Both the position numbers and the translations under genes were made by a program. The notes below the pieces were generated by a model. That model had not been told where the DNA came from. It worked only from the letters and a program-made list of their open reading frames with translations, and searched no databases. Below, piece by piece: positions 2,346 to 35,887 of a DNA stretch of 42,795 nt (the stretch's first letter is position 1; the number at the start of each line of letters is the position of its first letter). Source of the stretch: a bacterium (GTDB taxonomy: Bacteria > Patescibacteriota > Dojkabacteria > SC72 > WJKH01); contig JAKPPS010000040.1 of NCBI GenBank assembly GCA_029547225.1, positions 1 to 42,795 of the forward strand, read 5' to 3'.

Positions 2346-3626
2346 ATCGCTATTATTGAGAAAATTGACCGTGTAGCACGAAACTTTGCCGACATTGTAA
2401 AAGTTTATGACCTTATAAAAGCAGGTAAAGAATTCCACTTTGTAAAAGAAGGAATTGTGCTTAATAACGAGTCAAAATCAAATGAATTGATGAACTTTGA
2501 CCTACAAGCAGTCATGGCAAAAGGATATATAAATAACTTGCGTGATGACGTTAAAAAAGGACTTGAGGAGAAAGTAGCACAAGGTGGCTGGCCTGCTTCT
2601 GCACCACTTGGCTACAGAAACAACAGAGATACCCACACTTGTGATATAGACCAATATAAAGCTCCATTTGTAAGTAAAATGTTTGAATTGTATGCTACAG
2701 GTGAATATAGCTTTCAAACAGTTGGCGAACTTTTATTGGAACAAGGACTTCATGCAAAAGGAAAACCTGATGTTCCGCTTTGCAAAGAAAAAATTCGAGT
2801 AACCTTACAAAATCCGTTTTATATTGGCATAATGAGATGGAAAGGCAAAGAATACAAAGGTATTCACGAGCCAATAATATCAGAAGAACTTTACTACAAG
2901 GTGCAAGACATATTACGAAGTAGGAAAAAACCGAATAAACGAAAGAATAGCTTCCTATTTAGCGGACTTATTAAGTGTGGTGTTTGTGGCTCATCATATA
3001 CAACTGAAATACAAAAAGGTAGATAAGTGTATTACCGCTGTACTGAGCATAAAATGAAGCATAAGCACCAATACTGGAGGGAAGAAAAGCTAAACGACAA
3101 AATTTGCGAAGTGATTGAAACAATGAAAATTCCTAAAGAAACCTTTGAGGTATTAAAACAAACCCTATAAGATGCACATAAAAGTGAAGAAGATTTTCAT
3201 AATCAAGCAATGTCTATATTACAAGCAAAGCTCATCAAAACACAATCTAGAAAAGACCAATTATATCATGACAGACTTGATGGATTAATAACAAAAGAAA
3301 CATATCTTGAAAAGTATAACAAAGAAGTAAAGGCAGAAAAGCAAACTATCCGTGATATGGAGAAGCATAAACAAGCAAATCAGATATATTTTGAAACAGG
3401 TTTGAGGATTCTCGAACTGACACAAAATGCGTCACAGCTTTACAAACGAGCAGATGATGAAGGGAAAAGAGAAATTATAAATTTTGTATTCTCGAACTTA
3501 ACTATAACCCACGAAAAACTAAGTTATACAGGCAAAAGTCCGTTTGATAACTTCCTGAATTTCAACGATCGACCTAAATGGTCGGGGCAACCGTACTATG
3601 TACGAACAGCTCCTTCCTTACATTGA
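2346..3626 (+). pseudogene. Degraded large serine recombinase (5' truncated, two in-frame TAA stops)
   Basis: One frame encodes IDRVARNFADIVKVY...KKGLEEKVAQGGWPASAPLGYRNN...CGVCGSSYTTEIQKGR*VYYRC...KQTL*DAHKSEED...; ORFs 2457-3026 and 3210-3626 share this frame, separated by TAA at 3024 and 3168. The catalytic-serine N-terminus is missing at the IS boundary. Confidence 0.85.
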
Positions 3627-33821: not shown

Positions 33822-34172
33822 ATGGTCTTACCTCTTGTCCAAGACATGCTCCACATGTCGGCTGAAAGCCTAAGGACAAGATACCCCCAAGATTACAAAT
33901 ATATAAAAGCAATAGCTCAAGAAAAATGGCCACATATACAAATAGAAGAGAAGTCATTTAAGGAAGATGTTAAAGGGTTTAGGAATCTTATTGGTGATAC
34001 AAGTGCATATTGGCTTATTGTAATTAATACTGACTTATCAGACAAAGAGAAATATTTGGCACTAATACATGAACTTCTGCATTGTACATTAGATGAGGTA
34101 AAATTACTTAGTAGGGAAGAAGAAGAAAAGCTAGTAACAACGATAGAGAAGAGGGTTGGAGAAAGTTTTTGA
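33822..34172 (+). CDS. ImmA/IrrE-like metallopeptidase (start uncertain)
   Basis: YLALIHELLHCTLDEV, an HExxH zinc-binding motif, next to an XRE repressor. Confidence 0.7.
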   Translation: MVLPLVQDMLHMSAESLRTRYPQDYKYIKAIAQEKWPHIQIEEKSFKEDVKGFRNLIGDTSAYWLIVINTDLSDKEKYLALIHELLHCTLDEVKLLSREEEEKLVTTIEKRVGESF

Positions 34173-34202
34173 GATACTTAATGAAAAATGATAGTATATG
34201 AA

Positions 34203-34320
34203 TGACCACAACTTAAAACATAACAAGCCACCTTCGCTTTCTCAGGCAGAAGAGAAAGTAATAAGGGCGATTCGTACAATCTGGCTTGTTCAGGTTGTGG
34301 TCAACGAGTCGCCCTTTTTG
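34203..34320 (+). ncRNA. Predicted pseudoknotted RNA with terminal T-run
   Basis: A=tgaccacaac(34203-34212)+aacaagcca(34222-34230); hairpin ctttctc/gagaaag (34237-34258); B=aagggcgattcgt(34263-34275); A'=tggcttgtt(34282-34290)+gttgtggtca(34294-34303); B'=acgagtcgccctt(34304-34316) then tttg. Confidence 0.65.
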
Positions 34321-34344: not shown

Positions 34345-35832
34345 ATGAAGACAGCAGTTATATACGCAAGAGTATCATCAAGAGAACAAGCTGAAGGATT
34401 TTCAATTGACGCACAAGTAAAGGCTTGTAAGGCTAAAGCATCACAAGAAAACTTCAAAGTTCTAAAGATCTTCAAAGATGAAGGTTTTACTGGTACAAAT
34501 CGTAATAGACCTGCATTGAAAGCATTGGTCGATTTCTGTAAGAACAATAGTGTACATTCTGTAATCATTCATAAAGTAGATAGATTCGCTCGTTCAATTG
34601 TTGACCACTCAGCAATCAGAGCAATGTTAATAAAGCATGGAACGAATCTTCTTTCTTGTTCTGAGCAATTAGGAACAGCCCCACATGAAGTATTCCTTGA
34701 GAACATAATGGCTTCTATGGCTCAGTATTATAGCGACAACCTCAAAACAGAAGTTAAGAAGGGAATAGTAGAAAGATTTGAGAGTGGTTACCATATGTCA
34801 AATCCTCCATTTGGTTATGAAGTAAGAGCAGGTTCAAAAGTTATGCAAATAATTCCAAGAGAAGAAAAAATTATTCAGAAAATATTCTCTCTATATGTAA
34901 CTGGTAGATACTCATTCCAAACCATTGCCGACAAAATATATGTTGAAAATAATTACAAAAATCGTCAAGGAAAGAAATTTTCAAAATCACGTATTCAAGA
35001 CATACTGAGTAATGTAGTTTATATGGGGCAAATTGAATACAAGAAATTAGGTAAGAAAACACAGGGATTGCATAAACCAATAGTAACACCTACAATATTC
35101 TTATTAGCACAAGAGATTATGGAAACAAGAGGTAATGTTAGAAAAGTAGAAAAAGGAAAGTTCGAGTTTCTCTACAAAGGTTTTGTTGCTTGTCCTGAAT
35201 GTGGTAAAACACTTTATGCAGCCTACTCAACAGGAGGAAGTGGAAAGAAACATTTATATTACTGTTGTAGAAATAGGAATCATAAAGCAGTAAATATAAA
35301 AGCTAAAGACATTAACAAGGCTTTCCTCAAAACTTTAGAATCTTTACGAATAAATGACAATGTTATGGATATTGTCGAGGAATTTGTTGGCAAACGACTA
35401 GAAGAGCAAAGAGCCGTATCAGGAGAAAGGCTTAAAGAGTGTGAAAAACGAGTGAAAGCTATTGAGAAAGAAAAACTTGATGTCTACAAGGATTACAAGA
35501 AAGGCTTCATCAATGAAGAAGGACTAAAAAATGTTCTATCTGATTTAGAAGACAAGCAGACACTCGCTAGAGTGGATTTGAATGAAGAGTCAATCGATTA
35601 CAATGATTTACTTACACATATTAGAATGTTGGCTCAATTCGGTGCAAGAATCGACAGATATTGGGAGATAGCAACATTTGATCAAAAAAGACAAATTTTG
35701 GGAAGTATATTTACGAACGTACCAGTGTTCAAAAATAACGAGTTTACGAACGGAGAGATTAGCCCTCTGTATAAGGCTTTACAAGGCGTTTCTGAGGAGA
35801 GCGTCCTGTGTGGTCGGGGAAACAGGACTTGA
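34345..35832 (+). CDS. Large serine recombinase (integrase), full length
   Basis: YARVSSREQAEGFSIDAQ catalytic motif, recombinase domain, CPECGKTLYA zinc ribbon, coiled coil; 3' end runs into tRNA-Pro. Confidence 0.93.
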   Translation: MKTAVIYARVSSREQAEGFSIDAQVKACKAKASQENFKVLKIFKDEGFTGTNRNRPALKALVDFCKNNSVHSVIIHKVDRFARSIVDHSAIRAMLIKHGTNLLSCSEQLGTAPHEVFLENIMASMAQYYSDNLKTEVKKGIVERFESGYHMSNPPFGYEVRAGSKVMQIIPREEKIIQKIFSLYVTGRYSFQTIADKIYVENNYKNRQGKKFSKSRIQDILSNVVYMGQIEYKKLGKKTQGLHKPIVTPTIFLLAQEIMETRGNVRKVEKGKFEFLYKGFVACPECGKTLYAAYSTGGSGKKHLYYCCRNRNHKAVNIKAKDINKAFLKTLESLRINDNVMDIVEEFVGKRLEEQRAVSGERLKECEKRVKAIEKEKLDVYKDYKKGFINEEGLKNVLSDLEDKQTLARVDLNEESIDYNDLLTHIRMLAQFGARIDRYWEIATFDQKRQILGSIFTNVPVFKNNEFTNGEISPLYKALQGVSEESVLCGRGNRT

Positions 35833-35887
35833 ACCTGCGACCTCTTGCACCCCATGCAAGCATTCTAGCCATCTGAACTATTCCCCG
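35811..35887 (-). tRNA. tRNA-Pro (anticodon GGG), CCA encoded
   Basis: Minus: CGGGGAA-TA-GTTC..GAAT-G-CTTGC ATGGGGT GCAAG-AGGTC-GCAGG TTCAAGT CCTGT-TTCCCCG-A-CCA; all four arms pair; loop ATGGGGT gives GGG. Confidence 0.95.

Follow-up and report, generated by a model that had tools for sequence, protein, structure and literature searches.

A predicted two-state RNA attenuator preceding large serine recombinase genes in Patescibacteria

The RNA encoded directly upstream of a large serine recombinase (LSR) gene in the 42,795-nt stretch of DNA analyzed here (the window) is probably a bistable transcription attenuator, placed in the 5' leader of that gene and gating integrase expression. An attenuator with this role had been proposed from the letters of the window alone (the sequence-only reading), and the proposal is now well supported: both alternative structures covary, a third helix (C/C') is conserved, the two states are nearly equal in energy, and there is no room for another LSR promoter. 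The computed basis also includes the arm architecture, the position of the predicted promoter and the association with LSR genes. From these features we infer that transcription terminates or reads through in cells, which way the switch works and what it is for, which would be to keep integrase expression low and conditional. RNAs of the same design, in wholly different letters, precede many integrase genes across Patescibacteria and look like a family of RNA on/off controls.

The window comes from a Dojkabacteria/WS6-type genome of 1.01 Mb (G000, contig C44). It carries a mobile element that encodes, judging by the translations, secretion-type ATPases and a restriction system, with the LSR gene at its end. 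This gene overlaps a tRNA-Pro(GGG) gene, the LSR stop codon lying inside the tRNA, and the mobile element is probably integrated at the 3' end of that tRNA gene. An HTH gene and a weakly ImmA-like gene lie 5' of the RNA element; the latter stands where the sequence-only reading put it, but its identity is weak (Peptidase_M78, 19.4 bits, below the cut-off of 22). Elsewhere in the window, at 2457–3626, two open frames resemble fragments of a broken serine recombinase, and their neighbor in the tree is a second LSR of the same genome, on contig C39. The features of the locus are as follows.

34169–34197, + strand: predicted sigma70 promoter from a consensus scan, with –35 TTGAGA (34169–34174), 17 nt, –10 TAGTAT (34192–34197) and TG before the –10
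34203–34229, + strand: arm A, the antiterminator strand, with outer (34203–34214) and inner (34222–34229) parts and an A-rich bulge between them; from sequence, fold and covariation
34237–34258, + strand: hairpin P2, 7 bp, covarying; present in the closest group and missing from several other members, e.g. L050 and L121
34263–34275, + strand: arm B, the 5' strand of the terminator; from sequence and covariation
34276–34283, + strand: C, the linker strand, partner of C' in the terminator state; from RNAalifold, folds and an independent shuffle test
34283–34303, + strand: arm A', with inner (34283–34290) and outer (34292–34303) parts, holding C' (34291–34298) and a free 5-nt toehold (34299–34303); from sequence, folds and covariation
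34304–34319, + strand: arm B' (34304–34316) and T-run (34315–34319) of the intrinsic terminator; from sequence and fold
34345–35832, + strand: LSR gene, thought to be the regulated one, with Resolvase, Recombinase and zinc-ribbon domains (Pfam)
35811–35887, – strand: tRNA-Pro(GGG) (ARAGORN, Rfam)

Much of the RNA anatomy given in the sequence-only reading held up. The four arms run in the order A-B-A'-B' with a terminal T-run (34203–34319), A' abuts B' without a gap (34303/34304), B' runs into the T-run at 34315–34319, a 7-bp hairpin occupies the A-B loop (34237–34243/34252–34258), and 25 nt separate the element from the LSR start at 34345. B/B' had been described as matching at 12 of 13 positions. 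The arm positions were right, but at the one remaining position T faces G, which in RNA makes a G-U pair and completes the stem. Folding of a 166-nt segment gave –43.5 kcal/mol versus –28.5 ± 3.5 kcal/mol for shuffled sequences (z = –4.3), and none of 200 shuffles was as stable. Absent from the earlier description was a third helix, C/C' (34276–34283/34291–34298), which competes with A/A'. Separately, at 34230–34247 of the window and in the closest-group homologues, CC(C/U) before P2 could pair with (A/G)GG in the P2 loop; this might form an extra small pseudoknot, and a match so short may be chance.

A homology search upstream of related serine recombinases had been suggested, and searches by sequence, covariance model and architecture all found homologues there. 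A DNA search returned a second copy in the window's genome and copies in 4 of 192 relatives, each directly 5' of a serine recombinase; among named contigs bearing the same RNA, nearly all are Candidatus Dojkabacteria (WS6). In the six copies found by similarity, B, B' and the following ACAAT are identical, A/A' and P2 change with compensation (e.g. TGACCACAAC/GTTGTGGTCA versus TGGACACAAC/GTTGTGTCCA), and the inner A arm is highly variable. The invariance of B/B' and ACAAT in this closest group exceeds what a terminator needs, and is most plainly put down to one module having spread recently. A covariance model added a seventh copy, which has diverged and in which B/B' is compensated (GGGCGATCGG/CCGATCGCCC). 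We then gathered ∼180 LSR loci from Dojkabacteria and other Patescibacteria and scanned the space before each LSR for A-B-A'-B' plus a T-run, without using sequence similarity. The strict scan, which demanded a strong T-run, gave scores of at least 48 in 14 of 124 regions versus 0.0 in shuffles, and 30 shuffled loci gave no match to the architecture. The T-run is weak in several members, and ∼9 missed by the strict scan were recovered once this demand was relaxed (27 of 175 LSR upstream regions scoring at least 48, versus 0.1 in shuffles); two of the hits, L201 and L130, are doubtful and may be false. Two further members, 5' of LSRs in other classes, came from the covariance model. In all, ∼29 distinct members precede LSR genes across several Patescibacteria classes, and ∼1 LSR in six carries the leader. 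These comprise a folded set of 21 and nine found later; within the former, L142 is doubtful, being encoded on the other strand from its LSR.

Beyond these loci, 404 kb of element sequence held no further convincing member away from an LSR, 62 LSR loci of Clostridia and Anaerolineae gave no strong match, and viral contigs, plasmids and phages gave no sequence match to the RNA. Apart from unrelated palindromes, a genome-wide exact-pattern search returned five contigs that carry the true element. One contig binned as a Micrarchaeota archaeon (L018, JAHKLX010000081.1) shares its RNA and the start of its LSR with the Dojkabacteria genome CP129477 (L014), and is probably misbinned. Two elements of one genome (L308:959–1080, + strand; L315:16638–16759, – strand) have a conserved TATAAT box, divergent from a rep-O-like gene, and after it a short hairpin RNA, GC-rich and with a T-run (AAAAGAATCACCTCC...CAGGTGATTCTCTTTTTT); this looks like an antisense, copy-control-type RNA and not a member of the LSR-leader family. 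LSR genes of Patescibacteria very often end at the 3' end of a convergent tRNA gene, and many different tRNAs are involved. Among the Patescibacteria LSR loci L070–L165, a tRNA fell within the sequence examined at 11 of 17 leader-bearing loci and at 39 of 85 others. Targeting of tRNA genes by large serine recombinases may be a rule in this phylum.

The earlier proposal would have been undermined by homologues showing no compensatory changes in A/A' or B/B', and both helices covary. For the structure with A/A' (state I), 96.7% of cells were paired across the six similarity-found copies and 14 of 25 pairs had changed on both sides, a result matched by none of 500 shuffles; sliding the partner strand lowered pairing to 31–48%. 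For the alternative (state II), 96.2% of cells were paired, with eight doubly changed pairs, B/B' being invariant in these copies. Among 14 divergent members, all 18 tested pairs of outer A and inner B were doubly changed, and 99.6% of cells were paired versus 50% in shuffled controls (arms only, with constant spacers joined to hold register). These members were selected for complementarity, so that the count shows divergence with kept pairing and is not independent proof. The weight is on the tests with shuffled regions and on the helix that was not selected for.

That helix is C/C'. For the first six copies, RNAalifold passed over A/A' in its consensus and instead extended B/B' inward by C/C'. 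Since C, the linker after B, pairs with C' inside A', the A/A' hairpin (state I) and the extended terminator B-C-C'-B' (state II) are mutually exclusive. Both formed in nearly all single-member folds. C/C' pairing was not a criterion in the member searches; shuffling the C strand weakened the fold of the loop from –166.0 to –84.1 ± 8.5 kcal/mol, summed over 21 members, and none of 500 shuffles matched the native value. C/C' was individually significant (p ≤ 0.03) in all nine later-found members, and not in the doubtful L142. In the window, states I and II have energies of –39.3 and –39.2 kcal/mol, respectively, and are thus nearly isoenergetic; corresponding values are –35.8 and –35.9 for L128 and –31.7 and –33.1 for L121. 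For 16 independent members, the mean absolute difference between states was 3.8 kcal/mol and their energies correlated with r = 0.77 (random pairing, p about 1e-4), a correlation that may partly reflect length and composition. Hence the RNA has two conserved, mutually exclusive predicted structures, one of them a terminator.

These data bear on whether A/A' and B/B' could instead form together, as a folded pseudoknot that terminates transcription or serves to bind a protein or ligand. The A-B-A'-B' order with A' abutting B' occurs in all members, both helices covary, and B and B' are both single-stranded in state I, all of which such a fold would accommodate. Yet the conserved C/C' helix competes with A/A', and an A helix of ∼20 bp would have to be spanned by linkers of ∼6–10 nt, with 0–1 nt between A' and B'; with linkers so short, at least part of A would have to open. 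Pairing of A/A' and B/B' can hardly coexist in some members (in L115, the A helix is ∼20 bp and the linker ∼6 nt). With C' inside A' as well, a stable pseudoknot as the main state, as the sequence-only reading had entertained, is not supported, and we consider the pseudoknot reading unlikely overall.

Where transcription would start is consistent with attenuation. The predicted sigma70 promoter of the window puts the expected start site at 34203/34204, the first bases of arm A; the consensus scan that found it does no better than chance within this stretch when taken alone. In the homologues, a TATAAT-like box lies 4–8 nt 5' of arm A, and it is a perfect TATAAT in 10 of 21. The distance from T-run to LSR start codon is 3–35 nt (median 27; 14 measured cases), with one exception, own2, at ∼106 nt. 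So short a gap leaves no room for a separate LSR promoter. Transcription of the integrase gene must consequently pass the terminator, and the promoter at A is its simplest origin. Thus, the predicted terminator lies between promoter and coding sequence, and the gene would lack a promoter of its own. Scanned across the 5' arm, the opposite strand gave no antisense promoter signal (summed score of 159 versus 155.9 ± 4.4 in shuffles), and pT181-type antisense control was set aside on this simple consensus scan, which is a weak test.

The history of the RNA departs from that of the recombinases. The leader is scattered over the LSR tree, with at least 14 changes forced by supported branches (FastTree, approximate). 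RNAs of the first group are 61–84% identical, and several of their LSRs are only 25–30% identical, which argues against an RNA matched to a single recombinase protein. Two histories would account for this: transfer of the RNA between integrases, or replacement of recombinase genes beside it. Preceding unrelated integrases as it does, the RNA behaves as a portable regulatory module. A search for a shared element-encoded trans regulator in 13 RNA-bearing and five control elements turned up no common gene.

This distribution also weighs on readings in which the RNA serves something other than LSR transcription. The RNA might work mainly in trans as a standalone small RNA, with other transcripts or, as in type III toxin–antitoxin loci, a neighboring protein as its target; read-through into the LSR would then be incidental. 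Its predicted promoter and terminator, the order promoter–RNA–terminator–protein gene shared with such loci, and the long, element-specific inner arm would all suit this role. But the RNA is a single unit lacking tandem repeats, the next gene encodes a serine recombinase and there is no ToxN-like toxin gene, on which grounds a type III system was rejected. Moreover, similar RNAs adjoin LSRs that are 25–30% identical, so there is no co-evolution with one protein, and C/C' and the energy balance are left unexplained. We regard this role as improbable. Still less credible is a guide RNA that leads the recombinase to a target. Within the closest group the inner A arm is hypervariable against an otherwise conserved background, as might be expected of a guide, but the RNA distribution departs from the LSR tree, most LSRs have no RNA, and the window and L014, both at tRNA-Pro(GGG), have unrelated inner A arms. 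It is equally far-fetched that the palindromes only resemble RNA and constitute a DNA site of the recombinase (attP or operator). B-C-C'-B' is indeed an imperfect ∼52-bp palindrome adjoining the recombinase gene, a usual location of attP. However, an attachment site is split by integration and recombinase-specific, whereas this element is intact in integrated elements beside tRNAs, where the LSR separates it from the tRNA junction, and the same B/B' occurs beside unrelated LSRs, as little as 25–30% identical. The G-U pairs, the T-run and the promoter at A suit RNA instead.

Rfam 15 holds no family that matched the window at or above the gathering cut-off, in a window scan or a permissive scan, in keeping with the sequence-only reading, which had recognized no named riboswitch or ribozyme. 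As to the conserved unpaired core expected of an aptamer, the closest group shows conservation, while the groups differ from one another in their loops and bulges. With no antisense promoter signal, no shared regulator and no obvious unpaired core kept across groups, a pT181-type antisense RNA, a dedicated protein or a metabolite aptamer is less likely.

For the attenuator, we propose the following mechanism. Transcription would begin at arm A. In state I, A/A' (∼20 bp with an A-rich bulge) would tie up C' and separate B from B', so that polymerase reads through and integrase is made. In state II, C/C' within A' together with B/B' would form a long intrinsic terminator with its T-run, and transcription would stop after ∼115 nt. 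The states could interconvert by strand exchange. In most members, state II has 4–7 unpaired nt at the A' 3' end that are complementary to the 5' end of the RNA and could act as a toehold for A; in state I, B and B' are both single-stranded and could start the reverse exchange. A' emerges ahead of B', so in equilibrium folds of the growing chain A/A' is favored, and state II competes only once B' is out. The outcome thereafter would be a race, which holding A or altering polymerase speed could tip. By default, then, polymerase may read through as long as A is free, or its speed may decide a race between the folds. A terminated RNA of ∼115 nt would be an expected product, and an additional small-RNA role is thus possible. 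More speculatively, the mobile RNA family might be a natural toehold strand-exchange switch for excision of integrated elements in Patescibacteria, tipped by a trans signal, for example polymerase speed or a terminated leader made by that element or a relative of it; this would amount to RNA-based control of maintenance or immunity, an idea we hold only tentatively.

The Patescibacteria (CPR) are mostly uncultured. In them, this RNA appears to be a widespread and compact device, with two conserved folds of near-equal energy and a position suited to controlling the integrase itself, and it could serve as an attenuator part. Our literature search found nothing on RNA control of large serine recombinases. 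Several mobile-element systems are nonetheless related in parts. In phage lambda, sib lies 3' of int and acts through RNase III; there, as predicted here, an RNA terminator structure (sib/tI) limits integrase expression, but here the element is 5' of the integrase gene and has two competing folds. The phage P4 CI immunity system is another mobile-element case of a leader-encoded RNA with premature termination, both also predicted here. Trans action by the terminated leader would resemble P4, whereas the arrangement and the gene differ. The ToxI RNA of type III toxin–antitoxin systems is likewise compact, with a pseudoknot-like arm order, its own promoter, a terminator and then a protein gene; the RNA described here shares all of these, but lacks tandem repeats and a toxin gene, and its partner is an LSR that varies freely. 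In pT181 repC, governed by antisense-controlled transcription attenuation, an antisense RNA decides between the folds, and the antiterminator captures the terminator stem by its 5' strand (PMC4878617). As in repC, a mobile-element gene would be controlled by a 5' leader that has an intrinsic terminator, an antiterminator and two mutually exclusive folds; unlike in repC, A takes the loop and inner helix (C'), leaving B and B' untouched, and there is no antisense promoter signal. Mobile-element attenuators are thus known, and what would be new here is an unnamed RNA family, with an antiterminator that spares the basal terminator stem and a switching behavior that is predicted.
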